Source: Clostridia bacterium
Lineage (GTDB): Bacteria > Bacillota > Clostridia > Oscillospirales > CAG-272
DNA length: 45,473 bases
Assembly: GCA_017508425.1 (NCBI GenBank)
Contig: JAFVYZ010000033.1
Coordinates: 1 to 45,473, forward strand
Direction of reading: 5' to 3'
Shown here: positions 19,923 through 45,155 of the stretch, in pieces
Layout: each line of letters opens with the position of its first letter
Numbering within the stretch: the stretch's first letter is position 1
Position numbers and translations under genes: made by a program
The notes under the pieces: model-generated
Told to the model about the DNA's origin: nothing
Database searches by the model: none
What the model saw: only the letters and a program-made list of their open reading frames with translations

Positions 19923-22900
19923 TTAACTACGTTCCCAATAGTAGCCAACGTAAGTGTCGGTCAAATAGGTTGCTGCGGTAGATTTGTTTGCAAGACTGTT
20001 GCTGGAAATGCTTTTATAGTTCCCGCCATAGTATGTTGCATACTGCCATCCGTTTGTGTTTTCAAATGTTACACTCTTCAAGCTACTGCAACCGCCGAAC
20101 GCAGAAGAGTCGATTCTCGTCACGCTATTCGGGATTGTGATCGACGTGAGTCCACTGCAACCGTAGAAGGCAGACATGTCGATTTCCGTCACGCTGCCGT
20201 CAGTAGGAATCACACTGTTCTTACAACCAAGCACAAGCTTGCACGGCCGGATTTCGATTAAGCAATTCCCTTCACTACGATATTTTGTATTTCCACTTGC
20301 AACGATAATACTTTCAAGCCCGCTACACCTTAAAAAAGCCCACTCGCCGATGGACGTCACACTCGAGGGAATCGTGATAGATACGAGTCTGCTACAATTG
20401 TAGAACGCTTCATCACCAATGGATGTTACGCCTTCAGAGATTGTAATCGATGTGAGGTTGCTACAATTGCAGAACGCTCCATCACCAATGGATGTCACGC
20501 TTGATGGCATCGCAATCGAAGTAAGACCGCTCCAATCACAGAACGCATAATCGCCGATTGTGGTCACGCCCGACGGGATTTCCAACGAGGTGATTTTATT
20601 TCCGTTCAAATACAAATTTTTATTACCATCCAAAGGATTAGCATTACTTCTATCAAACTTTATATTGCACCAAGCCGCAAGATCGGTAATATATATGTCC
20701 GTAAGATTGCTACACTCCTGGAACGCACCATCGCCGATGAAGGTCACACTCGCCGGAATTGTGATCGACGTGAGATTGCTGCACCCATAAAATGCACAAT
20801 AGCGGATGGCCCCAAGTTGGCTGTTTTCGACTATAATAACGCTTTTTAGACTACTACAGCTTGCAAAGGCGCGTGCACCAATGAAAATCACACTTGCAGG
20901 AATCGTTATTGAGACAAGATTCACGTGCCTATTGAAAACATCATCCGCTATACCTCTAGTATTAGATCGCAAGGTCACATTGGCAATGGCAGAATCATGT
21001 CCAACTACCCATCTATCCACGTAAGAAACACCGTTTTCTGTTTGTATCAATTTTGTGCAACCGTTGAACGCCCCGCTTAAAATGGAAGTGACACTATCAG
21101 GAATTCCAAAATCTGTAAGACTGCTACAATCAACGAACACACCGTCTTCAATGACGGTAATACCAAATGGAATCGTAATTGATGTCAATTTGCTACATCC
21201 CAAAAATGCATAATCTTCGATGCGAGTTGTTTTACTATTTTCTCCAAAGGTTACAGTAACGAGCCCATCACAGCCGCTAAACGCGCGCTTTCCAATAGAA
21301 GTAACACTGTCGGGAATGACGATATTTGTGAGAGCACTGTAACCAGAGAAAGCATAAGATTTGATCTCTGTTATGCCATTTGGAATTTCTAAAGCTGTAA
21401 GTTTATTGCCATCCAAATACAGATTGTTTGCATACTTCAACGGATTTGAACCTTCTTTAAAGTCAATTTCAAACCACGCCCAAAGATCTGCAATATAAAC
21501 GTCTATTAAACTACTGCAATTATCAAATGCATAATAACCAATTTTAGTGAGACTTGATGGGAGGATAATGCTCGTTAGTTTTTTGCAATTTCTAAACGCA
21601 TAATTATCAATGGAGATGACACCTTGCGGAATAGTAATGTTCGCCAGAGAGGAGCAATTATCAAACGCCCCATAATTAATCGAAGTAATACTCGATGGAA
21701 GAATAATAGTAGTCAAATAACTACAATCACGAAATGCTTCCCAACCAATGCTTGTAACGGACACACCTTTATATGCAGAAGGAATAATGACTGTAGCCGC
21801 AGAGCCCGTGTAATCAGTTACGGAGTAAGTTCCGCTTGACAGGGTGAATTTTACACCCTTATCCTTGTAGTCTCCACAAACGCTGCAAGTATTTTCACTG
21901 TTATAAGTATGTGCAGTCTTTTTCAACTCCGCACTGCAGCCCTCTTGTGTGCAGGCGTGCCAATGGTAGGTGCCGTCGCCTGTCCATTCGGCAGCGGGGG
22001 CGTGTGCGTCCTCGTCAATGGGGATCGCCTCAACGAGCGTATATTCACAAATCGAACACTCCTTGTAATGGCTGCCCTCTGCCACACAGGTGGAGGCAAG
22101 GGTTTCTTGCCACTCGCCATAGGTATGTGCGCCCTCATTAAATTTCACAGTGCATCGGGTGCATGTATGCCAATGGTAAGTGCCGTCGCTCGTCCATTCT
22201 GTAGTGGGGGCGTGTGCGTCCTCGTCAATGGGGATCGCCTCAACGAGCGTATATTCACAAATCGAACACTCCTTGTAATGGCTGCCCTCTGTCACACAGG
22301 TGGAGGCAAGCGTTTCGTGCCATTCACCGTAGGTGTGCTCCGCTTTGTTTACGTGTGCGTTACACCCTGTTCGAGTACATTTGTGCCAATGGTAGGTGCC
22401 GTCAGTCGTCCATTCGGATGCAACCGCATGTTCATTCACATCAACCGGAATCGCCTCGGTCACCTTATGTGAGCAAATCGCACACTGCTTATAGCGACTG
22501 CCCTCTGCCACACAGGTGGGTGCGAGAGTTTGTTGCCATTCACCGTAGGTGTGGGTGTGTTGATCCAAAATGGCATCACAGTCCTCATAAATACAAGTAT
22601 GCCAGTGATTGGTTTCGTCTTTGTGCCATTCGGCGGCGGGGCTATGCTCTGCCACGATGTTGAGTGTGACGGTTGCGATATATCCACCGTAGATCACTGT
22701 CAATTCGTGCGTGCCCACGGTTGCAAGCTTGGCAATGTCCGCAGGCGTAAGAAGATCGGCAAGATCTGCCGCGAGCGGCGTACCGCCTATGCATACACGG
22801 ACACTCGAAGCCGCAGAAAGGCAAGCGGTGTCGGCAGAAAGCGTCACAGCACCATCCTGATTGACTACCAAGCCCTTTGGCAGATAGTATGCGGTCATAC

Positions 22901-23213
22901 GCACCTTTTGGGGAACGCTATACGACTCTATTCCGAGTCGTGCATCGGTCTGCCAAGTCAGCACGTTGGCGCGCGGAATGATGCTGTCCTTTACGTATAC
23001 GTCAACGCCGTCCAAAATAAACCAATTATCGTCCGTCCAAAGCACCCAATCGGTGTTGCTTGCGGGTACCTGATAGATCGGAAAGCCGCTCATTCCACTA
23101 TACGCACCCGCCACCGTGCGAACGGGACCAAAATCATCCAAGCCGCCCGTCCATTCGATCTGCACAGAGCCAAACAGGTCGCCTACGTAATTATATTCCA
23201 CGTTGGGGATCAC
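19923..23213 (-). pseudogene. C-terminal part of a BspA-like leucine-rich-repeat surface protein, cut off by a stop
   Basis: This 1096-residue frame continues in phase, after a TAA at 23240-23238 and eight codons, from the lipoprotein gene upstream. Order: a beta-rich region (about 1-115), an Ig-like stretch (about 118-188), three and a half Cys/His-rich repeats of 70-72 residues with HTYGEW, CSICEYTLVEAIP and DGTYHWH (about 194-453), then a long series of LRR_5 (BspA-type) repeats of about 23 residues (SITIPSSVTSIGEWAF style) to the end. No LPXTG or membrane tail is seen. The GTG at 23213 has no good ribosome site, which favours a broken gene over a separate one. LRR_5 proteins bind host or matrix proteins in other bacteria. 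Confidence 0.8.
21855..22634 (-). repeat. Tandem Cys/His-rich repeats, about 216 bp
   Basis: Three units of 72, 72 and 70 residues plus a partial fourth. Each has EW..DGTYHWH, C...C, HTYGEW, TCV.EGS.YK.C.IC and an EAIP.DE.AHA ending. Units two and three share long identical DNA stretches (for example near 22010-22080 and 22225-22300), so recombination between them could change repeat number. Confidence 0.85.
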
Positions 23214-34365: not shown

Positions 34366-34400
34366 AAAAAAGTGAGGTGTGCGAAATTCGCACACCTCAC
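34366..34400 (-). terminator. Terminator of the phage-derived late operon
   Basis: GTGAGGTGTGCGAA pairs perfectly with TTCGCACACCTCAC (34372-34400), followed on the minus strand by TTTTTTCAGG. It lies just after the last gene of the island. Confidence 0.92.
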
Positions 34401-34410
34401 CGTGAAATAT

Positions 34411-34863
34411 TTACTCGGGCTTGTGAGCCAGCACAGCCTCAAGCACCGCGCGGAGATTGCAAAGAATGCCACAAAGCGCATCCTTTTGCTCCTTTACCAC
34501 GTCAAGCTCACTTTCGGTGGCAAAAAGAGCCTCCTCCAGCTCCGCTTGCTTCAGACGAAGCTCCTCGCACGCAGGACAATCCTCCTCGTGCCCCACTTCC
34601 TCACATACAGTGGGCATCTCCTCATCCTCCAAGAGGCAGGAGGCCTCCTCGGGGATATTTTGCTCCTCCAAGCCCGCATTGTATGCGGGATTTTCGAACC
34701 AAACCTCCCCCTCGCACTTAACATAATCGCCCTTGCCTTCATCCCATCCATAGGATTTGGTTTCGGTGTAACCGCGGTAATGCGACACACCGGGATCGTT
34801 TTTTACTTTTTGAAAGAGCACGCGTACATCCTGACGTGTGCTGACCTTTTCCTGGTAATTCAA
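34411..34863 (-). CDS. Island protein with Cys-rich middle and coiled-coil tail, unknown
   Basis: A 150-residue acidic protein I do not recognise. Residues 28-60 include YRGYTETKSYGWDEGKGDY, the middle has CEEVGHEEDCPACEEL (a possible metal-binding CxxC cluster), and residues 103-150 are heptad-like (LKQAELEEALFATESELDVV). The start is TTG at 34863, preceded by AAAGGAG at a long spacing. This start overlaps, as TTGA, a stop that ends an in-frame extension of the upstream gene. It is the last gene of the late operon. Confidence 0.6.
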   Translation of the reverse strand: MNYQEKVSTRQDVRVLFQKVKNDPGVSHYRGYTETKSYGWDEGKGDYVKCEGEVWFENPAYNAGLEEQNIPEEASCLLEDEEMPTVCEEVGHEEDCPACEELRLKQAELEEALFATESELDVVKEQKDALCGILCNLRAVLEAVLAHKPE

Positions 34864-34964
34864 AACAGTCTTTCCACTCCTTTCAAAATTTTTAACACAG
34901 CCTCAAGGATCTCGGCTCCCTGCTCTTGCCGACAAAGTGCTTCGGCGGCACGATGGAGCCTCAG

Positions 34965-35324
34965 TCACTCGAGCATTTCGCTTTTTCCAACACCGTTCAC
35001 GCCCTTTGAATAGGCAATATCGGATTCAATGCGCGCAACCATTGCACTTTCATCGAACTCGCAACCAAGCTCGGTTGCAAGCACACGCAAGCGGGAAAGC
35101 ACGTAATTGAGCTTTTCTGCCGACGTATAAGAGGTAAACTGCTCGGCCTGTAGCTCATATTCCCTTGCGGCATCAAAAAGTGCCGTCATGCTTTGAAGGG
35201 CCTTCAGCTTCCCCGCACGGCAAAACTTATACACATTGTAGGCAAGGCCTGCCGCGTTTACAAGAATACCGAAGCAAATACCGACCAGTTCCCAGTTCGC
35301 CGCGATCCACTCGAATACCGTCAT
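34965..35324 (-). CDS. Holin-like small membrane protein, probably truncated by TGA
   Basis: A 119-residue protein with one N-terminal membrane helix (about 9-30, ANWELVGICFGILVNAAGLA) and a helical C-terminal part (EKLNYVLSRLRVLATELG...), which resembles small holin-associated proteins of Clostridia phages. It starts at ATG 35324 (ATGA overlap with the gene before). The TGA at 34967-34965 is followed in the same frame by 34 open codons (34964-34863) with amphipathic sequence AAEALCRQEQGAEILEAV, ending in a TGA that overlaps the next start. The full gene was probably 34860-35324 with Trp at the stop. Confidence 0.6.
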   Translation of the reverse strand: MTVFEWIAANWELVGICFGILVNAAGLAYNVYKFCRAGKLKALQSMTALFDAAREYELQAEQFTSYTSAEKLNYVLSRLRVLATELGCEFDESAMVARIESDIAYSKGVNGVGKSEMLE

Positions 35325-35680
35325 ACCGATTCACCACCTTTCTTATTTCCTTTGGGAGATCCGCAAAGACGCTGCACGAAGCGTGCATACTCCCCGAACG
35401 CCTCCTTAAAAATACCGTTCATAAACTTATAGCCCTCGGCCGAGCCCGTGGTGAGCTCGATCATCGAAAGCAAATAGGTCCAGTAGATATTGTCGTAAGG
35501 CGCAGGAACGCTCAGCAGCTCCTCCGCCGAGGAGGCGGTGGGGTGTTGGCCCGGGATCGCATCGTAGATCTCACAAGCGATCCGTTGCTCGATCGTATCG
35601 AGCCAATAGAGCATCACCGCATCCTCAAGCTCGTGTGCACGCACACTTTTTACAAACGAAAGCACCTCTGCCCTGGTCAT
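35321..35680 (-). CDS. Head-tail connector / adaptor-like protein
   Basis: A 119-residue helical protein. PAPYDNIYWTYLLSMIELTTG and GFKEAFGEYARFV-type residues resemble the head-completion adaptors found just after capsid genes in many Clostridia phages. ATG 35680 lies after GAGGTG; a GTG at 35692 is the alternative, overlapping the preceding gene. Placement after the capsid gene supports a connector role, but the family name is not certain. Confidence 0.6.
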   Translation of the reverse strand: MTRAEVLSFVKSVRAHELEDAVMLYWLDTIEQRIACEIYDAIPGQHPTASSAEELLSVPAPYDNIYWTYLLSMIELTTGSAEGYKFMNGIFKEAFGEYARFVQRLCGSPKGNKKGGESV

Positions 35681-35688
35681 CGGGCACC

Positions 35689-36102
35689 TCACATCTCGTG
35701 ACGGCGACTCTCATCTGCAAAGCGATTTTCTTCGCGCTCCATCAGCTCGGCCGTGCGAAGATCCTGGATCTCGGATTGGTCGAGCAGCATCGCAAATTTA
35801 CGACGGATCCGTGTCCACACGCCGCGGCGGATCACGCAATTCTTTCCGTTGATGGCAACATATACGTCATCCTTGTATTTTTCGTTGTCCTTAAACAGGC
35901 GGATCTCCACGTATTCGTTCAGCCACGCCTCCTGGTCGCGCAAGAACCTTTTGAATTTTTCATGCTTCTCGCTGAGCGCCCTTTCGGCCGCGCTCTTGTC
36001 ATCACGAAGGGACGCGAGCTCCGCCTCATACGCAGTGCGCAGGGCCTCGATTTCGGATCGCAACGCTTCAAGCGTTACCGTTTCATTTTCTTTAGCTTGC
36101 AT
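35689..36102 (-). CDS. Capsid-operon protein with coiled coil and NGKN motif
   Basis: A 137-residue protein. Residues 8-55 form a coiled coil (EALRSEIEALRTAYEAEL and on). A small beta region follows with DDVYVAINGKNCVIRRG and TRIRRKFAMLLDQSE, a pattern seen in short proteins next to N4-gp56-type capsid genes. It may be a capsid accessory or maturation protein. ATG follows AAAGGAG. Confidence 0.55.
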   Translation of the reverse strand: MQAKENETVTLEALRSEIEALRTAYEAELASLRDDKSAAERALSEKHEKFKRFLRDQEAWLNEYVEIRLFKDNEKYKDDVYVAINGKNCVIRRGVWTRIRRKFAMLLDQSEIQDLRTAELMEREENRFADESRRHEM

Positions 36103-36176
36103 AGTATCTCCTTTCTTCTTTTAAGCCGTCACTTTGCAAAAACGGAGTGACGTTATTCGTTTTTTTGCAAACGGGT

Positions 36177-37571
36177 TTAGTTTTCGCCCACCTCAAAGGT
36201 CGAAGCAGTTTCAATACGGACCATAAAGGCCTCCACCAAGCGTGCGGCCGCCTTGGTAGCCTTCCAGCCGACCGTGGCGCGCTGATTGAGGGGGTCCGCC
36301 GTGCCGGCGGAGCCCAGCTGCTTGACGATGTGCTGCAGGCCGCCGTCCGTCAGCTCCGTGGTGCCGTACGCGTTATCGCCAAATACAAGCGTCGCGTACA
36401 CGTCTCTACCGGCCAGGCCGGCCTCGCCGGGATATATAATATCCTCGGTCGTAGGGATAAAGACCTTGTCACCCGTGCTGCCCGTAAACAAAGGGCGATC
36501 GAGATAAAAGAAGTTCGACCCCGTTTCGGCACGCACACCACCCATGACCTGGGCATACTGCCAAGTGCCCTCCGAGGCATCATACACCAAGATCGAGCGG
36601 CCAACCATTTCCGGCATCATTCGATGCCCTACGGATCCCTCACCGATCTTCAAGCGATGCCTGGTAGCCGTGCCGTAGCCGGGCGTGACCGAGCCGGGCT
36701 CTTCAAGATTCAGGTATCCGTCATTAAAGCACTGGATCGTACGCGAGGTCGAGGTCAGATCAGGCGCGTGGAACACCTTAGCCTCAGTGCTCTCCACAAA
36801 GCGCACGCCCTCGATCATGCCGATCTCACCCTCGTAAAGCTCCTTGGTATCGCAGTATTGGTGCGGATACTTCCAGTTCGCATCGTTGGTAAGATCATAG
36901 GCACAGTCGGGGTGAATGATGCAGGCGTAAGCACCGTTGATCTTCTCGGCGTTTTGATTTTTAAGAGAACGCACCGCACGCTTGATGCAGTCAACCGTCA
37001 TATAGTTGTTGCCCGACTCAAGGCCGCCGGCAAGCAGGTAACGCGCAGGCACGGCATCCTCGCCGTACTGAACGTTGGTACCGCCGCAAAGCACCTCACG
37101 CGTGATGGTATCCAGCGTCCTGCCCGCCTGCGAGCCGAGGAGCTTGGTTGCCATCACAAGATTGTTGTCGATGGCGGCCAGCAGCAAGAGATCGGAAAGC
37201 TCTACGTATCCACCGTACTGACGCACCACGGTCTCAACCGAGCCCATATTAAGGGACTGGCCCGTCGGAGTCACACCCTCCGAGAGTGCCTCGGTAAGCT
37301 TGGGGAGCGGATCGTACTTGCGGAAACGAATCGACTTGCCGCCGTTTTTGGGGATCGTGTGCTTTTGACCGAACTGATCGTGGATGAGGTTCGGCTCGGC
37401 ATTGTCAATGAGATAATCCGCGTAATAGGTTCGCATCTCATCGGAGAGTCCACCGCCCTCTACATAAGAGGTCTCGGTGCCGGTCGCGGCATTCACGTAC
37501 CCCGTTGTTGTGTTGATGTTTTCACCCGCGCCAAAACGGTGCAGGTCGAAGATTTTGTTTTGGTTGTTCAT
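36177..37571 (-). CDS. Major capsid protein, N4-gp56 family
   Basis: A 464-residue capsid protein. The central signature GGKSIRFRKYDPLPKLTEAL, EGVTPTGQSLN and VRQYGGYVELSDLLLL fits the N4-gp56 family of HK97-fold coat proteins. It begins MNNQNKIFDLHRFGAGE; residues 8-14 (FDLHRFG) match the scaffold leader FDLTLFG and the L27-type leader cleaved by Prp, so cutting after F13 is expected. ATG 37571 follows GGAAAAGG. The upstream in-frame extension of 47 residues is an artefact of overlapping frames. The product would form the shell that the terminase packages. Confidence 0.85.
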   Translation of the reverse strand: MNNQNKIFDLHRFGAGENINTTTGYVNAATGTETSYVEGGGLSDEMRTYYADYLIDNAEPNLIHDQFGQKHTIPKNGGKSIRFRKYDPLPKLTEALSEGVTPTGQSLNMGSVETVVRQYGGYVELSDLLLLAAIDNNLVMATKLLGSQAGRTLDTITREVLCGGTNVQYGEDAVPARYLLAGGLESGNNYMTVDCIKRAVRSLKNQNAEKINGAYACIIHPDCAYDLTNDANWKYPHQYCDTKELYEGEIGMIEGVRFVESTEAKVFHAPDLTSTSRTIQCFNDGYLNLEEPGSVTPGYGTATRHRLKIGEGSVGHRMMPEMVGRSILVYDASEGTWQYAQVMGGVRAETGSNFFYLDRPLFTGSTGDKVFIPTTEDIIYPGEAGLAGRDVYATLVFGDNAYGTTELTDGGLQHIVKQLGSAGTADPLNQRATVGWKATKAAARLVEAFMVRIETASTFEVGEN

Positions 37572-37611
37572 ACCTTTTCCTTTCTTTTTTCGTTGTGCAA
37601 AGGGAGGTCCG

Positions 37612-38247
37612 TCAGAACTCAATGCGTTCGCCCTTGGCCGCACGGCGTGCCATATCGGCCCGATCGGCACGAGACAAGCGCGAGGCCCCAAAGCGGCCCG
37701 CGGCAGCCCCACCGGGAGTCAGTGCGCTTTCAATCGGTCGCATTCCCCTGGCGCGGATACTGTTTGTCACCGCCTGCTCGGTCTCTTTTCTCGTTTGCAA
37801 AACAGCGGCCTTAACCGCCTCTTGGATCCTTTCCTCCATTACGGCACGGCTGACCGTATCACCAAAATCAAGGCCCGTCTCCGCCGGATCCGCCGACGCA
37901 TTTCTTTCCTTTTCCGCCCGTATGGCGGCGACAAGCTCTTGTTCGCCGGTCACGCCGTAATGCTCCCGTGCCGCGGCGACCACGTCACGAGCGCGTTGCA
38001 ATTCCTCTAACATTCCCTTTTGTTCTTTGAAACGGCGATTAAAGGTTTCTTGAAAGAAGGCTTGAAAGAGGTCCTTGTATTCGCCCTCCATCATTCTCCT
38101 GAAAGCCTCTTTTCGCGCGTTTTCATGGTTTTCCCCGGCGTCGGGAATGCTCCTATCGCCCGTTGCCTGAGGGGTGAGCTCAGGCATTTCTTCTCCACCC
38201 ATATCATCCTCGCCAAACAGCGTAAGATCAAAATTAAAAAATTTCAT
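37612..38247 (-). CDS. Capsid scaffold protein
   Basis: A 211-residue acidic, helical protein just before the capsid gene. It begins MKFFNFDLTLFGEDDMGGEE; the LF-G site at 11-12 is like the L27 leader. The middle (MLEELQRARDVVAAAREHYG) is coiled coil, and the C-terminus (SRADRADMARRAAKGERIEF) is basic and helical, as scaffold tails that bind the coat often are. Position, size and leader support the call. ATG 38247 follows GGAGG. Confidence 0.78.
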   Translation of the reverse strand: MKFFNFDLTLFGEDDMGGEEMPELTPQATGDRSIPDAGENHENARKEAFRRMMEGEYKDLFQAFFQETFNRRFKEQKGMLEELQRARDVVAAAREHYGVTGEQELVAAIRAEKERNASADPAETGLDFGDTVSRAVMEERIQEAVKAAVLQTRKETEQAVTNSIRARGMRPIESALTPGGAAAGRFGASRLSRADRADMARRAAKGERIEF

Positions 38248-38310
38248 ACTTCCTCCTTTCAGGATCAAGCAATAAAAACAGTAAGCGTTTGCAGTATGCT
38301 GCTGCCATAA

Positions 38311-38646
38311 TCAGAATAACAAATGAGCCCCCTCTTTGTCGTTGACTGAGAGATTCCCCGAAAAGCACATGTGATCCGGATATTCGATCGCAAGACGCCT
38401 TAAGGCCCCGACCGTCATATCAAAGGTATCGTGCAGGCCATAGCAACAGGACAAAAAGGCCAGTCCGCGCTCCACATATAGCCGTACGTGGCGGCAGTCA
38501 GGACGGCTTTTTGCATACAGACTCAACGCCTCGGTCAGCGCGGAGACGGCGGCACATACGCGCACCCCCTCCGCCGATTCCTTGGCATGGCCCACCACCA
38601 AAAGGCGGTATTTTTCGCCCCGTTTGCTGGCATAAACTCCAATCAT
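38311..38646 (-). CDS. Prp-like cysteine protease (capsid maturation)
   Basis: A 111-residue protein of the Prp (YsxB) family. VVGHAKESAEGVRVCAAVSALTE holds the active-site pair H20 and C31 in the order GHA...VCAAVSAL; here split as VVGHAKESAEG and VCAAVSALTE. Host Prp removes the L27 leader, and Prp also cuts scaffold and capsid leaders of Staphylococcus phage 80-alpha. A Prp gene between portal and scaffold suggests this is the island's own prohead protease. It overlaps the portal stop by ATGA. Confidence 0.82.
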   Translation of the reverse strand: MIGVYASKRGEKYRLLVVGHAKESAEGVRVCAAVSALTEALSLYAKSRPDCRHVRLYVERGLAFLSCCYGLHDTFDMTVGALRRLAIEYPDHMCFSGNLSVNDKEGAHLLF

Positions 38647-40355
38647 ACGGCCTGTGCTCCTTCGGCCTCATTTCGAATACGCCGAGCTCCCCTTTCCGCT
38701 TGCACCGCCAAGGGAGTTTCGGCCTTAAAGGTCCCTTTAGATGTCCCCGCTTCCAATCCCTTTCCCTCACGTACCCATTCTGAAATTTGTCCGCGCAGGC
38801 GTTCGACCCCCGGGAAATCCATTGCATCCAGCAAAACCTGTGCCGAGCGCGCATTGGCGGGATCGAATACGCCAAGCGAATACAGGCTTGTAAGCATTTC
38901 ATTGTAGGAATACTGCGTATAGGGGTTCTTTTTTCGTGCCTGCACATCGATGTCGAAAACAGGGCGTCGGGTCAAGAGGAGCCCTGCCTCGGTTTGACCG
39001 ACCGTGCGCTCCTTAATGTGCTCGTTGCACCACGAAAGATAACGGTGTCCATCATTCTTTCCAACAATGCGGAAGCACCGCACTTCACTGTAAAACTGAC
39101 GCACGCACTCCACGATCAAGCGTGCGACCTCCACAAATGCGCGGTAGGATGCACCGATGATGTCACGCATGCTCTTGTTGCCCGCCTCCTGAAGCGCGGC
39201 GATCGCGGCGGCCGCCGTTACCCCACTCTCGGTAGAGCCCTGCAGCATATCGCGGTTGGCCACGGTTTCCTTGAGCTCATTGACCTTGGCACGCTTGAGC
39301 TCCAGCCACAAGGGATCCAGCGCCGCGACCTCGATGGGACGAAGACGCTCCTCGTCGGGATCGCCCTCCACCGACACGATGCGGCGGGTAAGATCACAAA
39401 ACTCCTCCTCGTTGACGCCCGTGCTCCGTTTGGAAAAATAACGCACACGGGTGGCCCAATCCATGTACTCAAGAAGATTGCGGTCCATACGATCGATGTA
39501 CCCTTGCGGATCGCGCCCCACGGCAATGATGCCAAAGCCCAGTGTGGTTCCGGCAATGGGATAAAGCACATCCAGCACGAACGGGTATTTGCCGTGCTCG
39601 TACCAGCCACCGGGGTATGTCCCTTCGTTTTCGGTCGAAAACAACACCGTATCCCCGGCAAATTTACAATAGTGCAATACCTCGCGCCCACCGGAAGTGC
39701 GCTTTTTATAGTACCAATCGACCACGGCAACCGTTTCCTCACCGCCCCTTTGGCAAAACAGGCTTGAGAGCCCCTCGCATCCCGCCCCATCGAAACGGGA
39801 ATAACGGGTACGCAGATCCTGCGCGTCCACCTCCTCCACAAAATAAACCGATCTTGAATCCTGCAAGGAGCGAACACCAAGATCCCAATAGAGCCCCTCA
39901 AGGTCCACGCGGCGCACGTCCACGTCGCCAAGCCCGTTTTCAAGAGACGTATTCCAAAACACGCCCCACGCGCACACGCCATGCTTTAATTTGTACCACA
40001 TATTGTCGGAATAGGCCCCTTCAAACCCCGAACGGTCGAGGATCACGGGCAAGATCGCCGACAGCGCCCTTGCATCCTCCTCGTCGCTCTCCTCGCGCGG
40101 CAAGCACGCGGCTATAGGAATGTTTTCCATCAGATCCGCATGCTTTTGCATCAGGGCATTAAAAAGCCACCCTGACGTGGGGGCAATGACCTCACCCTCA
40201 CTGTTTCGACGCGCGTTGGGTGTCACACGCAAGCGATACCAATCCTCCTCCTCCCGCACACGTGCCAAAAAGCCCTCTCTTGCGCGGCGAAAGGCCATCA
40301 ATTCCTCGGTCGCGGCACGAAGCTGTACCTTCCCGATCACATTTTTCTTTCTCAT
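38643..40355 (-). CDS. Portal protein (P22-like)
   Basis: A 570-residue protein encoding the dodecameric DNA-entry vertex. SGWLFNALMQKHADLMENIP and YSDNMWYKLKHGVCAWGVFWN are typical of podovirus-type portals, as is YLSWCNEHIKERTVGQTEAG later. The C-terminal domain is rich in helices. ATG 40355 follows AAAGGAG; upstream in-frame codons overlap terL. It sits between terL and prp as expected. Confidence 0.85.
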   Translation of the reverse strand: MRKKNVIGKVQLRAATEELMAFRRAREGFLARVREEEDWYRLRVTPNARRNSEGEVIAPTSGWLFNALMQKHADLMENIPIAACLPREESDEEDARALSAILPVILDRSGFEGAYSDNMWYKLKHGVCAWGVFWNTSLENGLGDVDVRRVDLEGLYWDLGVRSLQDSRSVYFVEEVDAQDLRTRYSRFDGAGCEGLSSLFCQRGGEETVAVVDWYYKKRTSGGREVLHYCKFAGDTVLFSTENEGTYPGGWYEHGKYPFVLDVLYPIAGTTLGFGIIAVGRDPQGYIDRMDRNLLEYMDWATRVRYFSKRSTGVNEEEFCDLTRRIVSVEGDPDEERLRPIEVAALDPLWLELKRAKVNELKETVANRDMLQGSTESGVTAAAAIAALQEAGNKSMRDIIGASYRAFVEVARLIVECVRQFYSEVRCFRIVGKNDGHRYLSWCNEHIKERTVGQTEAGLLLTRRPVFDIDVQARKKNPYTQYSYNEMLTSLYSLGVFDPANARSAQVLLDAMDFPGVERLRGQISEWVREGKGLEAGTSKGTFKAETPLAVQAERGARRIRNEAEGAQAV

Positions 40356-40368
40356 TTTTTCTCCTTTC

Positions 40369-41778
40369 TTATGGCCGCGTTTCACTGCGGCGCACATAAC
40401 GAACGATCTCACGATCCAACGGATCGAGCATTTTTACCGTACACGTGTCGCATTTTTTGGTCGGCGACATCGGCACTAACATACAAAGATATCTCGTTTC
40501 ATCGGCAATATGATCCTCCATATCGCTATCCACGTCCTCGGCGTGCGTCCGACTGTATTGCAAAATGGGAACCGTGCGCACAAATTCACGGCAGGTGCTG
40601 AACACGTAAAGCATCGGCACCCCCCTTTCGTCAAAGGCAAGCCGATTGTGCAGCTGCATCCACCCCGCCACGCGCCGGTTATCGCCACGCTCGAAATATA
40701 CACCGAGTCGCTCCGCGGTCGCGGCGATCGCCTCACCGCGCGAGGCATCCCAAATGGCGGGATCGGCCACTCCCGTAACGGTTTTCCCCGCAAGCCACGG
40801 ATGCTCTCGCTCGATCCGTGCGATCTCACGGAAGATCTCCTCCGGGGTCATCTTCACCCCGACGTTGGCCTCATCCTTCACGCATCCGTAAAATTCAAGA
40901 ATGCGATACAAGCGCCCATCCGAATCCTTGGTCCACCATCCTACCGAAAAGGGCTTGGCGTACCCGAAGTCAAAGGAGCGGTATATGGGCCAACTCTCCG
41001 GGGGAATAAAGGGATCAATGACGTGCGTATAAAGTCGGTCGGCATAGTGTGAGGCGTCATTCCGAAATTCCTCAAAGACCTGCCCCTCATACACGTTCCA
41101 ATCCCCCTCAAGATGTGCCCTTCGCTTGTGAGCGGGCAAGGCTTCAAGCCGTCTTACGTATTCGGGATCGGCCTGCATCAGTGCGCGGTTGTCATACACC
41201 ACGGCAGGGATAAATACATAATCCTCGGGGCGCTCACATCCCTCAAAGCGACGGTCGATAAAGAGCCGCTTGATGTAGGCGTGCCCAACGCCCCCGGGAT
41301 TGCAGGTGTAATACACCCTCGGGCGAAAATAACCCTTGGTCGTACGAAGCGCCGTACAAATAAACACGATCCATTCTTCTTTAAAATGCGTGGCCTCCTC
41401 AAATCCAATGACGTCGTATTCAGCTCCTTGATATTGCAATACGTCGCTGTCGGTATCGCAATACCCCAGCACCAGGCGCGAGCCGTTCGGGAAAATAAAG
41501 GCACGCTCATCCTTTTTAAAGGTAGCAAAGCCAAGGAGCTCCGCTTGAAGAGGCAAAACGTGATTTTCACGCAGCTCCTGCAAGCTGCGCCGCAAAAGCA
41601 AAAGCCGCAGCTGCGGATAGCGCATGGCAAGCATTACCATTTTGCGGCGCATCGCCCAGGATTTTCCGCCGCCGCGCGCACCGCCATAAGCGGTATGACG
41701 CGCCTTGGAGCGAAAGAATTCCTGCTGGCGTTTGTTGGGAACCTCACGGCGCAAGCGGGAAAAGATCAACGGCTCCAT
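40369..41778 (-). CDS. Terminase large subunit
   Basis: A 469-residue DNA-packaging motor. Walker A is GGARGGGKS (32-40), with a conserved R in LLLLRRSLQELRENH. Walker B is YDVIGFEEATH (about 120). The C-terminal nuclease has IYRSFDFGYAKPF, TGVADPAIWD and VDSDMEDHIADETRY. All key residues look intact. ATG at 41778 overlaps the TerS-like gene by 13 bases. Confidence 0.92.
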   Translation of the reverse strand: MEPLIFSRLRREVPNKRQQEFFRSKARHTAYGGARGGGKSWAMRRKMVMLAMRYPQLRLLLLRRSLQELRENHVLPLQAELLGFATFKKDERAFIFPNGSRLVLGYCDTDSDVLQYQGAEYDVIGFEEATHFKEEWIVFICTALRTTKGYFRPRVYYTCNPGGVGHAYIKRLFIDRRFEGCERPEDYVFIPAVVYDNRALMQADPEYVRRLEALPAHKRRAHLEGDWNVYEGQVFEEFRNDASHYADRLYTHVIDPFIPPESWPIYRSFDFGYAKPFSVGWWTKDSDGRLYRILEFYGCVKDEANVGVKMTPEEIFREIARIEREHPWLAGKTVTGVADPAIWDASRGEAIAATAERLGVYFERGDNRRVAGWMQLHNRLAFDERGVPMLYVFSTCREFVRTVPILQYSRTHAEDVDSDMEDHIADETRYLCMLVPMSPTKKCDTCTVKMLDPLDREIVRYVRRSETRP

Positions 41779-41993
41779 TCTTCCAGCACCCCCTCAAAAA
41801 CGATCGAGCCGCCCCCGCTTGTCCCTCCCTCGAGGGCGTTTTTTCCACTGATACGGTCAAGGATGCTTTCCGCCGCCTTCAGGCGTAATTCGGGCTTTAC
41901 CTCTTTATCCTCCATCAAGGACACGATAACCTCGACCGCCGCGGCCCCCGAGCCAAGCAATAAGTCTCTGGCATCCCCCGTTCCCATCGGCAT
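41766..41993 (-). CDS. Small terminase-like protein
   Basis: A 75-residue protein directly before terL. The middle LKAAESILDRISGKNALEGG is a helical motif common in short phage packaging proteins. Position and overlap suggest a small-subunit role, but it is shorter than most TerS proteins and lacks a clear HTH. ATG follows GGAGGG. Confidence 0.5.
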   Translation of the reverse strand: MPMGTGDARDLLLGSGAAAVEVIVSLMEDKEVKPELRLKAAESILDRISGKNALEGGTSGGGSIVFEGVLEEWSR

Positions 41994-42005
41994 AAAACGC
42001 CCTCC

Positions 42006-42329
42006 TTACTCCTGCTCGCGGTAAAAACAGAGGCGGTACTCCTTTTCTTCACCGCTGGATTCTACCGCATAGGTGCCGAGCGCCTCACGCAGCGCCGCCT
42101 TGTCCACGAAAACGGTGTAGGTACCGTCCCCGGTCTCGGAGCGAATGCCCCGACAGGCCTCTTGATCCCCCGCCAAAGCCAGCGAAAGCAGGGCCGTGAA
42201 CGCCGAGGCAAGACGCACACTCTCTTGCCACCCCTTCACATCCTCACGCAGCGCCTTGATCTCTTTGGCACGCGAGGCAAGAAGGCGGTCTTTGGGGTCC
42301 TTCATTGACGTTTCATTTTCCTTTTTCAT
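42006..42329 (-). CDS. Unknown island protein
   Basis: A 107-residue protein with a charged helical N-terminus (AKEIKALREDVKGWQESVRLA) and a C-terminal part with GTYTVFVDKAALREAL. I do not recognise it. ATG overlaps the previous stop as ATGA; an internal ATG at 42305 is an alternative start. Confidence 0.55.
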   Translation of the reverse strand: MKKENETSMKDPKDRLLASRAKEIKALREDVKGWQESVRLASAFTALLSLALAGDQEACRGIRSETGDGTYTVFVDKAALREALGTYAVESSGEEKEYRLCFYREQE

Positions 42330-42523
42330 TGATAACTCCTTTCATAATATCCGTCAAGCGCACATTTAAAGGGGCAACGCTTGTAATCAGTCGGGTGGGC
42401 ACAGTAGGCATAGACGATATCACGTCTTGCCCCCTTATCGGGAAAGCGAAGCTCCCCACACTCACAATAAGTAACACCCGCCTTTTCGTAGCGAAAGTAC
42501 GGGCACATTCCGGCCAGCGGCAT
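42326..42523 (-). CDS. Small Cys-rich protein, first gene of the island operon
   Basis: A 65-residue protein with a zinc-ribbon-like set of cysteines: MCPYFRYEK, YCECGELRFPD, YCAHP and RCPFKCALDGYYER. Such small proteins occur near phage packaging genes; the role is unknown. ATG follows AGGAGG at eight bases. Another frame over the same stretch has no ribosome site. Confidence 0.65.
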   Translation of the reverse strand: MPLAGMCPYFRYEKAGVTYCECGELRFPDKGARRDIVYAYCAHPTDYKRCPFKCALDGYYERSYQ

Positions 42524-42549
42524 TTTAACAACCTCCTAATTCATCTTAA

Positions 42550-42748
42550 TTTTGGAACGGTCAAAGGAAAAACGCTGTCCCAATTTTGGTACGAAATTGA
42601 TGTAATTATTTCAATTTTCGCACAATCGTCCTCGTTTTTCTTTTTTGTCGTTCTATTTTTGGAACGACTTAAGCATACACCATCCCGTCGCATTTGTCAA
42701 GAACCGCAAAATGAACAAATTGTAAATTCGTATCATTTTTGGAACGAC
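42550..42748. promoter_or_regulatory. Four repressor-operator candidates (TTTTGGAACGAC)
   Basis: Copies at 42550-42562 (TTTTGGAACGGTC), 42584-42594 (TTTTGGTACGA), 42656-42668 and 42736-42748 (both TTTTTGGAACGAC). The third forms an inverted repeat GTCGTTC-N8-GAACGAC (42647-42668). The third lies at the start of the minus promoter and the fourth next to the -35 of the plus promoter, so one repressor could control both. Confidence 0.75.
42672..42700 (-). promoter_or_regulatory. Promoter of the capsid/packaging operon
   Basis: Minus strand TTGACA (42700-42695), 17-base spacer, TATGCT (42677-42672). The operator 42647-42668 covers the expected start. Confidence 0.75.
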
Positions 42749-42751
42749 CAC

Positions 42752-42781
42752 TTGACAAGTCGCGCATCATCTTGTTACAAT
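42752..42781 (+). promoter_or_regulatory. Promoter of repressor operon
   Basis: TTGACA (42752-42757), 18-base spacer, TACAAT (42776-42781). A small GGGTGC/GCACCC hairpin (42797-42810) follows in the leader. Confidence 0.8.
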
Positions 42782-42830
42782 AAATATGATAAAAAAGGGT
42801 GCCTGCACCCGTAAAAGAAAGGCAGTAATT

Positions 42831-43142
42831 ATGACTGTATCCGAGCGTATACGAAATCAAATGACCCTGCTCAACCTTTCCTACGGTGAGCTTTCGGCCA
42901 AAACGGGACTGACCAAGTCTGCCATCCACCGTTATGCCACAGGGCACACCGACAAGATCCCGACCGAGGCCCTTGAAAAGCTCGCACTGGCCCTTGGTGT
43001 GACCCCCGCATTTCTTACGGGCTGGGAGCAAGGGCACCCGCACACACTTGCCGCACACTTTGAAGGTGAAGAATTTTCCGAGGAGGAGTTAAAGGAAATT
43101 GCCGATTTCGTGCGCTTTGTCAAATCCAAGAGAATGCGCTGA
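42831..43142 (+). CDS. XRE/cI-like repressor
   Basis: A 103-residue DNA-binding protein. The N-terminal helix-turn-helix covers about residues 5-60 (LSYGELSAKTGLTKSAIHRYATG). The C-terminal part is acidic and helical (EEFSEEELKEIADFVRFVKS). It lacks a LexA-type peptidase domain, which fits cleavage by a separate ImmA-like peptidase, the next gene. ATG 42831 follows AAAGG. It probably represses the island operon through the TTTTGGAACGAC sites. Confidence 0.85.
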   Translation: MTVSERIRNQMTLLNLSYGELSAKTGLTKSAIHRYATGHTDKIPTEALEKLALALGVTPAFLTGWEQGHPHTLAAHFEGEEFSEEELKEIADFVRFVKSKRMR

Positions 43143-43153
43143 AAGGAGGCCCT

Positions 43154-43672
43154 ATGTACGAGAAGCTGCTTGACGAGGCCAATGAAAACGGGCTCACCGT
43201 CATTGAAAAATATCCCTTTTTATCCCCTCGCATCCGCGGGCTTTGTTGTGATGACACCATTGCCATCAGCGCACAGATCGACACTGAGGCCGAGCGGACC
43301 GTGGTGCTTTGCGAGGAGCTTACACACGCGCTCCACTCCTACGGCGACATCTTGAACGACCCCCGTATGGAGCACCGCACGCGCCAACAAATATTTGACC
43401 GTTTGATCGGCGTTCCAAGGCTGCTTGAAGCCGCCTTGAGCGGTTGTAAGGGCCCTTGGGAATTTGCCGAATATTTCAGCGTTCCCGAGGATTTTTTCCT
43501 CGCCGCGATGACCAATTACCGCGAACGTTACGGCACGATGACCAAGCTAAAAACCGAAAAGGGCGAATTTATCCTGTCCTTTGATCCCACCTTCCGTGTG
43601 CGCCGCGTCGTATCGACGAGAGGAAAGGAAGGCACCCGAAAACGAATGGTCCGAAAGGAAAACGCCGTATGA
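43154..43672 (+). CDS. ImmA/IrrE-like metallopeptidase
   Basis: A 172-residue protein. The zinc motif appears as [14 protein letters not shown] (EExxH form seen in many ImmA proteins), and [13 protein letters not shown] is a further conserved block. Such peptidases cleave the cognate repressor to induce ICEBs1 or prophages. The basic C-terminus ([15 protein letters not shown]) is unusual. ATG follows GGAGG, 11 bases after the repressor stop, and its stop overlaps the glpK start as ATGA. Confidence 0.82.
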
Positions 43673-45155
43673 AACAATACTTGATGGCACTGGACCAAGG
43701 CACGACCAGCTCGCGCACTGTGATCTTTGACCGCGAGGGACGCGTTGTTGCCAAGGCCTCGCGCGAATTTACGCAATACTTCCCGAATGGGGATGGGTCG
43801 AGCACGACGCCAATGAAATTTTTGAAAGCCAACTAAAAACCGCAAGGCAAGCCCTTGCGATGGCTGAGTTATCCCCTGCCGACATTGCCGCCATTGGCAT
43901 TACCAACCAACGCGAAACGACGGTGGTATGGGAAAAGGAAACCGGCGAGCCCATTTGCCCTGCCATCGTGTGGCAATGCCGCCGCACTGAGGATTTTTGT
44001 GCCGAATTAAAGCAAAACGGAAAGGATGCTTTGATCCGCGAAAAAACAGGCCTCACCCCCGACCCCTACTTTTCCGCAACAAAGCTCCGTTGGATCCTTC
44101 AAAATGTGGAGGGTGCCGAGGAACGCGCAAAAAAGGGCGAGCTGCTTTTCGGCACCGTGGATTCCTTTTTGATCTACAAATTAACGGGTGGGCGCGTGCA
44201 TGCCACCGACCCCTCCAATGCCGCAAGAACGATGCTTTTTAACATCCACACCCTGGAATGGGATGAGGAGCTCCTCACGCTCTTCGGCGTACCGCGCGCA
44301 ATGCTTCCCGAGGTGCGTCCCACCGTGAGTGTATTTGGCACTACCGACGAGTCGCTCCTCGGTGCTCAAATACCGATTGCGGGTGTTGCGGGCGATCAGC
44401 AGGCCGCCCTTTTTGGGCAGTGCTGCTTTGAGGCCGGCGACGTTAAAAACACCTACGGCACGGGTGGCTTTTTGTTGATGAACACCGGCACCACGCCGGT
44501 AACCTCCCAAAACGGCATGCTCACCACCATTGGATGGGAAATGAACGGAAAAATCACCTACGTGCTGGAGGGCTCCGTCTTTATTTGCGGCGCCGTCATT
44601 CAATGGCTGCGCGACGGACTGGGGATCCTTTCCTCCGCCGCCGAAAGCGAGGCGTTGGCCGCGAGTGTGCCCGACAGTGGCGGCGTGACCTTTGTGCCGG
44701 CCTTTGTCGGACTCGGAACCCCTTATTGGGATGCCGCAGCGCGCGGTACCGTTTGCGGCATCACACGCGGTACCACGCGTGCGCACCTGGTTCGCGCGGC
44801 ACTCGACGCCATTGCCCTGCAAACCGTAGATGTGATTGACGCCATGCGCCGTGATACGGGCCTTCCGGTACCGATCCTTCGCGTGGACGGGGGCGCCTCG
44901 GCCAACAACTTACTGATGCAAACGCAAAGTGATCTTTCGGCGCTTCCTATTGCGCGTCCCTGCCACATTGAAACGACCGCCTGGGGCGCGGCCGCTATGG
45001 CAGGCCTTTCGGTCGGTGTTTACCAAAATACCGATGATCTCACAGCGCTGACCAAAACCGCCAATATCTTTGAACCCAAATTAAGCGAAGGCGAGCGACA
45101 ACAGCAGCTTGCACGATGGCACCGCGCCATCGAAAGCGCCAAAGCCTTTACATAA
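43669..45155 (+). pseudogene. glpK: Glycerol kinase, frameshifted near 43783
   Basis: Glycerol kinase phosphorylates glycerol to glycerol 3-phosphate. The N-terminus [21 protein letters not shown] is in one frame; after REFTQYFP the reading jumps. Adding one C in CCC (43782-43784) restores [16 protein letters not shown] and the rest to 45155, giving about 495 residues, the normal length. Downstream motifs are intact: ITNQRETTVVWE, TDPSNAARTMLFN and FVPAFVGLGTPYWD. As written, the long downstream frame would start at ATG 43860. The start overlaps the ImmA-like gene by ATGA. A sequencing or assembly error is possible. Confidence 0.85.

Follow-up and report, generated by a model that had tools for sequence, protein, structure and literature searches.

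Why would a bacterial genome keep genes for building and filling a phage head beside a repressor switch, with no recognisable tail? The question is raised by an island in a 45,473-nucleotide stretch of DNA from a Clostridia bacterium (contig JAFVYZ010000033.1 of assembly GCA_017508425.1). This stretch, here called the window, is one entire contig of a 1.77 Mb assembly. Twelve open reading frames (ORFs) lie on the minus strand within 34411-42523, and a divergent Xre/ImmA pair lies at 42786-43672. A first, sequence-only reading had described a head and packaging set with a divergent repressor/ImmA pair, and the ORF positions and family matches confirm it. The set is also more than chance, since its gene order, frames, and catalytic motifs are repeated in 17 other genomes. 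We consider the island likely to be a domesticated, podovirus-derived DNA-packaging locus of the gene transfer agent (GTA) type whose tail has mostly been lost. We prefer this reading because the island sits at a fixed site, is of vertical descent, has low ratios of nonsynonymous to synonymous substitution rates (dN/dS), and encodes a small terminase (TerS) without a helix-turn-helix (HTH). A domesticated particle was among the possibilities left by the sequence-only reading, and these four lines of evidence favor it.

A search for the large terminase, TerL, covered 147 genomes surrounding that of the window. The island TerL was present at 77-100% identity in 18 of the 21 genomes of the genus, namely the window's genome and 17 of its 20 relatives, and these island bearers provide the 18 loci compared below (G and L numbers denote genomes and loci). 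Gene order is identical across the 18 loci. On one side, 17 loci reach beyond ImmA, and in 16 of them glpK adjoins the switch; L066 has no glpK beside the switch, but its next genes are as in the other loci. The opposite flank is spoVAD in six loci, serC in seven, a feoB-like gene in one, and a contig end in four. Tail, integrase, or lysis genes just outside the island, which by the sequence-only reading's own account would have refuted it, were not seen: wherever the assemblies cover them, the flanks are host-type genes around one fixed site. Three genomes of the genus yielded no TerL copy. G019 (93% complete) has an island-free site, where glpK is next to serC-serA-prfB with about 0.8 kb between, and the gap between glpK and serC had no match to any island protein. 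In G006 the contig stops just upstream of glpK, and G014 is uninformative, as it yielded no close glpK and no spoVAD. G019 falls near the outgroups in the tree with weak support (58), so that a gain after the G019 split and a loss in G019 both fit. The named records of the genus are labelled as Clostridia, Clostridiales, or Oscillospiraceae bacteria; a ruminant gut source is given for 9 of 16, and no source for the other seven. The window's own glpK (43669-45155) is broken, with about the first 40 codons in a different frame from the rest, while the gene is whole in L051. This break is either a pseudogene or an assembly error.

Hidden Markov model (HMM) searches found g2, terS, terL, portal, prp, scaffold, capsid, g9, g11, and the repressor in all 18 loci, and ImmA in 17, the 18th being ended by a contig end. 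The core-gene frames are open in all 18. Seven in-frame stops were flagged (in the repressor of L050-L052, the capsid of L059 and L062, and g10 and prp of L059), and all of them sit at alignment edges, before the gene start or after the gene end. The statement in the sequence-only reading that the core does not look decayed holds. Selection was estimated by the Nei-Gojobori method on pairs with dS < 2.5, leaving out g10 and prp of L059 because the aligned stretch overran a stop. Approximate median dN/dS was 0.084 for the repressor, 0.085 for TerL, 0.148 for the capsid, 0.16 for the portal, and up to 0.37 for Prp, compared with 0.14 and 0.079 for the host genes glpK and spoVAD. A tree of five island proteins and a tree of seven host genes, the latter set with much missing data, agree in their well-supported groups. 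Island and host protein distances were correlated over 17 taxa (Mantel r 0.72, with 0 of 5000 permutations as high), and single-gene correlations with the host ranged from 0.46 (capsid) to 0.76 (TerL). The island is thus inherited vertically at a fixed site and is under purifying selection, as expected of a GTA.

The type of TerS also bears on this question. The absence of an N-terminal HTH has been proposed by Sherlock et al. as a mark of GTA-type TerS (PMC6854486). The putative terS of the island (41766..41993, minus strand) is short, and with the nearest start its product is 57-81 amino acids in the 16 named loci. The window TerS matches phrog_10899, a terminase small subunit family, at 3e-4, in a match confined to the interior of the profile. 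When the TerS of the 18 island loci were compared with a profile built on the N-terminal HTH of phage TerS, none gave a match with E < 4. The HTH profile matched 21 of the 64 loci scanned (five of them its seeds and some near-duplicates), among them 13 of the 15 IMG/VR loci L033-L047. With a full-length phage TerS profile, the window TerS aligns only over the C-terminal part (positions 115-158 of 159; E 0.019). The TerS of L071, from a second genus, and of L074 and L079, from other islands, match the full profile only from position 49 onward; HTH-bearing controls align from position 2-6. The island TerS appears to be of the GTA type, without an N-terminal DNA-binding domain, as judged from a weak TerS similarity and a profile that is not sensitive to every HTH. 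An HTH is present in several loci of the same family or order (L073, L075-L078, L081, L083, L085), so not every related locus is GTA-like.

The head and packaging genes are phage-derived and their catalytic motifs are intact. The sequence-only reading had found the catalytic residues of TerL and Prp in place, and the comparison extends this to the relatives. TerL (40369..41778, minus strand; PHROGs/Pfam, E 6e-46) keeps its Walker A, Walker B, and nuclease motifs in all 18 loci. The Prp-type cysteine protease (38311..38646, minus strand) matches phrog_4478 at 6e-8 and Pfam Peptidase_Prp at 8e-4, below the cut-off; in an NCBIfam scan the Prp match was weak (0.036) and the remaining matches were at chance level. 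Its His and Cys are conserved in 17 of the 17 sequences aligned, as is the EExxH-type motif of ImmA. The portal (38643..40412, minus strand) is of the P22 type (phrog_156, 2e-55; Pfam P22_portal, 1e-21). The major capsid protein (36177..37571, minus strand; phrog_1357, 1e-81) has the N-terminal motif FDLHRF/GA. Judging by N-termini that are conserved across the relatives, translation most likely begins at the ATG at 37571 (M48 in the ORF listed as 36177-37712) and not at 37712. The motif [FLIM][DN]LxxFG is found at the capsid N-terminus in all 18 loci. A similar Prp-like motif is near the N-terminus of the protein that we name scaffold from its position (37612..38268, minus strand; phrog_13908, 4e-20, an unnamed family), and LxxFG is present there in 16 of 18 loci. 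The L27/80alpha motif cut by Prp is (D/N)LQ(F/L)F'A, and the capsid and scaffold of the island resemble those of staphylococcal phage 80alpha in their N-terminal L27-like (D/N)L..F' motif, but as described for 80alpha, that phage relies on the Prp of its host, whereas the island has a prp-like gene inside its operon (PMC9405229).

The sequence-only reading had also stated that tail, replication, integrase, and endolysin genes are not recognisable, and family scans bear this out. None of the 14 island proteins matched an integrase, replication, tail-fibre, or endolysin family in PHROGs or Pfam at E up to 1. With its host-type flanks, the island lacks recognised integration and replication genes, as a GTA would, and it does not unite tail, lysis, replication, and integration in one element as a complete prophage does. 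No direct repeat bracketing the island was found in the window. That lysis is wholly absent is perhaps not correct, given g11 (34965..35324, minus strand; 119 amino acids; 18 of 18 loci), which has an N-terminal hydrophobic segment and is probably an LLH-type holin. Among 16 members, six match Holin_LLH (PF09682; best 0.0099), six match the holin family phrog_608 (best 0.0048), and five match the holin family phrog_6918 (best 1e-3); all of these matches are weak, and the window's own copy is below the limits of PF09682 and the PHROG holin families.

Where did the island come from, and what happened to its tail? Podophage contigs with replication-type genes bear the same module (L039, L043, L046, and L047, by eye). 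Since complete podophages share the module, the island is a derivative of such phages and not a fresh fragment. Among the 23 related loci L067-L089, 16 encode a phrog_511 protein of 500-820 amino acids after the connector, and a 17th, L067, is ended by a contig end; the same holds for 10 of the 15 IMG/VR loci L033-L047. PHROGs labels this family an internal virion protein, and a profile of this large virion protein weakly matches a Pagevirus virion structural protein (22.6 bits). In many related loci it is followed by an ejection-type protein, named from its position. The position of the large virion protein suggests that it is a tail or ejection part. PDB sequence searches with the portal and with the large virion protein profile gave nothing useful.

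In the window's genus, a phrog_511-type protein is encoded only in G011 and G017 (2 of 21 genomes), both times in cis at the 3' end of the island, and a profile search of the 21 genomes found no other copy. The ejection-type profile found nothing in the same 21 genomes, within which it has no positive control. In twelve loci the sequence continues unbroken past the last island gene into genes of host type, two have the phrog_511 gene, and four are cut, so the absence of this gene in cis is real in the twelve. Tail or other delivery parts, which a GTA would be expected to have, are not recognised in the window, and the large virion protein is rare in its genus. Selection maintains the genes for head, packaging, and processing together with the holin-like gene, and it lets the delivery side go. 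The two genomes that keep the phrog_511 gene (L061 and L066, on the serC side) have very divergent copies, which share 23-24% identity, compared with a median pair identity of 76% for the capsids of the genus.

In a second genus, that of G023 (L071, L198-L202), TerL was found in all six genomes. The podovirus-type island of this genus has ten genes, from terS to the ejection-type protein, and it retains both the phrog_511 and the ejection-type genes. It is adjacent to KH-rpsP-ffh in the five uncut loci, a site that differs from that of the window's genus. Two of these genomes have further, more diverged copies (L203, L204).

By gene content as described, FpGTA of Faecalibacterium prausnitzii, a podovirus-like GTA reported by Borodovich et al. 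2026 (PMC12946183), comes closest to the island among published systems. According to that report, the FpGTA operon is 10.5 kb with ten ORFs, among them TerL, portal, scaffold, capsid, and a TerS without an obvious DNA-binding domain; it has no replication genes and was found in all twelve Faecalibacterium genomes that the authors examined. The particles are about 40 nm, have no identifiable tails, and contain 8.4-8.9 kb of host DNA. The authors also describe GTA-like packaging in Oscillospiraceae (Onthomonas sp.), and they found a strong candidate operon in one of the four named metagenome-assembled genomes (MAGs) searched, a genome of F. prausnitzii (PMC12946183). The island resembles FpGTA, as reported, in its compact podovirus-like operon, in a TerS without an obvious DNA-binding domain, and in the lack of replication genes. 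It differs in genus and site, in having its own Xre/ImmA switch and a prp-like gene in the operon, in the loss of the large virion gene in most species, and in a holin-like gene in cis with no second locus found.

More distant systems share parts of this picture. RcGTA shows vertical descent and selection, as the island does, and alphaproteobacterial GTAs are tailed. The island head is P22/Pagevirus-like, unlike theirs. Likenesses to these GTAs are a TerS without an N-terminal HTH and head and packaging genes without self-packaging, as described in PMC6854486 and PMC7947584. The capsid has a homolog in Pagevirus (Bacillus phages Pony and Page), to which it is about 36-37% identical along part of its length, with a profile E of 5e-60, and the order of the head genes is similar; Pagevirus, however, has a complete phage set including tail, lysis, and replication. 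We found no published description of this locus in the open-licence PMC literature, judged from titles and abstracts.

How might the island be switched on? The Xre/Cro-C1 repressor (42786..43142, plus strand; HTH_3, 3e-9; 18 of 18 loci) matches the PADLOC capH model at 7e-10, and it is followed by the ImmA-like metallopeptidase, an antirepressor candidate (43154..43672, plus strand; phrog_87, 3e-19; Pfam M78, 0.0017, below the cut-off). CapH/CapP pairs respond to DNA damage, and the match to capH suggests that the island may be induced in the same way. A sigma-70-like promoter sequence, TTGACA-17-TATGCT (42672..42700, minus strand), leads into g1, and TTGAC[AT]-17/18-TATNNT precedes the operon in all 18 loci. 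Directly after the -10 is an operator-like dyad, CGTTCC-AAAAAT-AGAACG (42649..42666), and three more on the same minus strand are at 42729..42746 (one mismatch), 42576..42593 (two mismatches), and 42542..42559 (one mismatch). When the pattern CGTYYY-N6-RRRACG was searched with up to two mismatches, the whole window had 9 dyads against 2.85 expected, and 0 of 100 shuffles had as many. Four of these dyads are in the intergenic region between the HTH gene and g1; the relatives have four there in 14 loci, three in two, and two in one. Exact operator matches in the 21 genomes numbered 31, of which 25 are at the island (in 13 of the 18 bearers) and six elsewhere.

These parts suggest a course of events. 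DNA damage would probably be the trigger: the ImmA-like protease would remove the Xre repressor, and the operon would be turned on. A capsid would then be made, with its shell and scaffold proteins trimmed by the island's own Prp, as their motifs suggest. TerS without a recognisable site-recognition domain, together with an intact TerL, would fill the capsid with the DNA present, most likely that of the host, and the holin-like protein would aid release. Either a second locus, which was not found here, would supply the particle with tail and lysis parts, or the particle would be released without a tail, as a head filled with DNA. Induction, the formation of particles, their DNA content, and their function are predicted along these lines.

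Several observations weigh against a domesticated locus of the GTA type. The named relatives in the genus are MAGs, and the remainder are fragmented assemblies. Synonymous substitution is near saturation (median dS 1.1-1.9), which makes the dN/dS values rough, and weakly supported branches differ between the island and host trees, for example in the placement of G017 and G004. Most TerS of the genus match the full TerS profile at chance level (the window at E 0.019), the HTH profile missed an HTH seen by eye in L084 and L086, and DNA recognition might be supplied by g1 or g2. Moreover, with the virion protein in 2 of 21 genomes and the ejection-type protein in none, DNA delivery is without an explanation. 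A non-homologous tail may be supplied in trans. It is possible, though somewhat doubtful, that the island is one part of a two-locus GTA like FpGTA, which is a sub-case of the GTA-type reading: tail fibre, receptor binding, and endolysin would come from a second operon, and the large virion gene would have been replaced by a non-homologous one. FpGTA is reported to have such an operon, encoding a tail fibre, a receptor-binding protein, a holin, and an endolysin, about 125 kb away in one strain but undetected in seven others (PMC12946183), and the island has the holin-like g11 in cis but not an endolysin. Against this, the large virion gene is in cis in both genomes that have it, the ejection-type profile is silent in the genus, and off-island exact operator matches number 6, compared with 11 for a reversed control pattern. 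A trans regulon was sought by the operator motif and rejected on these last counts, which allow no second locus to be named. Two profiles and the one operator pattern found no second (tail/lysis) locus, and no whole-genus search for endolysin, integrase, or tail fibre was made. We suggest, as tentatively, that selection keeps the making and filling of heads while delivery is dismantled, giving a naturally tail-less, DNA-filled head that is freed by lysis. The DNA of such a head would be passed on by a route other than injection, competence being one example, or would not be transferred at all. ComEC is encoded in 20 of the genus's 21 genomes, though 10 of 14 control genomes have it as well.

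Not all explanations require transfer of DNA. The capsid could have been kept for another use, such as altruistic lysis, killing, or DNA storage or disposal, which we regard as unlikely. The retention of head, packaging, and holin-like genes would suit such a use. So would the failure to find a large virion gene, and so would the four loci in which the connector g10 went undetected; the authors of FpGTA raise an analogy with PBSX (PMC12946183). However, nothing recognised in the locus suggests a cargo or toxin, and the intact nuclease and ATPase motifs of TerL imply DNA packaging. A defective prophage in decay would explain the kinship with podophages bearing the same module and the loss of the large virion gene, but the frames are open and the catalytic motifs kept across 18 loci, dN/dS is low, the regulatory region is conserved, and the island is maintained throughout the genus, which makes decay very improbable. 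The sequence-only reading had likened the island to a capsid-forming phage-inducible chromosomal island (cf-PICI). Cf-PICIs are mobile satellites with integrase and replication genes, which package their own DNA and borrow the tails of helpers. The island shares with them its own head and packaging genes and the absence of a tail (PMC12597102), as well as a repressor switch. Integrase and replication families were not found among its proteins, though, and neither was a bracketing repeat; its single site, congruent descent, and TerS without a recognisable HTH also argue against a satellite. On these grounds, and for its lack of mobility, we rejected the cf-PICI and consider it hardly credible.

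If the GTA-type reading is right, podovirus-like GTAs of gut Firmicutes would extend to another genus, whose named members are largely from ruminant guts. The island would add to them a fixed site and a likely switch, and the series of related loci would show delivery parts disappearing as the head parts persist. This series makes it testable whether a phage head is useful to a cell without a tail. A short TerS without an HTH, fixed host flanks, and a Prp motif on the capsid are suggested as criteria in searching for GTA loci. Loci of this kind may be taken for viruses by error: three stretches of this bacterial island, each 8-11 kb long, are entered in IMG/VR as viral genomes (L031, L032, L183), and these contigs carry g11 and g12 of the island.

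The remaining genes of the operon, all on the minus strand, are less well characterised. The first gene of the late operon, g1 (42326..42523), encodes a Cys-rich protein of 65 amino acids that is zinc-ribbon-like by eye. By HMM it is present in 17 of 18 loci with a conserved Cys pattern, and it has homologs in L067 and L086; it had no match among the families scanned. Next to it and upstream of terS is g2 (42006..42329; 107 amino acids). After the capsid gene, g9 (35689..36102; phrog_15239, 3e-22, unnamed) is a connector or decoration protein by position, and g10 (35321..35692; phrog_12105, 2e-12, unnamed; 14 of 18 loci) is in a connector or adaptor position. The family of g10 is also found in one phage and one locus of the second genus. 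The last gene, g12 (34411..34863), encodes a conserved N-terminal stretch of 60 amino acids and a probable coiled coil. It is present in 14 of 18 loci, and one of the four without it is ended by a contig end. This gene is genus-specific, and outside this genome only island copies were met; a match in G044 (32 residues, E 7e-5) lies inside a glycosidase-type ORF by eye and was treated as chance. The operon ends in a hairpin with a T-run that resembles an intrinsic terminator (34371..34401).

Three further observations concern other loci and the rest of the window. L068 and L106 have a TerL that is 68% identical, an 83-amino-acid protein at the position of TerS, and g1- and g2-like genes, and their downstream genes have no match to the head genes of the window. 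A packaging cassette may have been combined there with a different head module. L086, from a different genus, is a compact head island between host-type genes with g1- and g2-like genes. It encodes, by eye, a LexA/S24-like repressor and an XhlA-like protein of 95 amino acids with a coiled coil and a C-terminal membrane segment, and an HTH is apparent in the ORF at the position of TerS. In the window itself, a 1096-amino-acid ORF (19923-23213, minus strand) has leucine-rich BspA-type repeats by eye and lies in a region of reduced GC content (0.37-0.45 in the bins at 19-22 kb).

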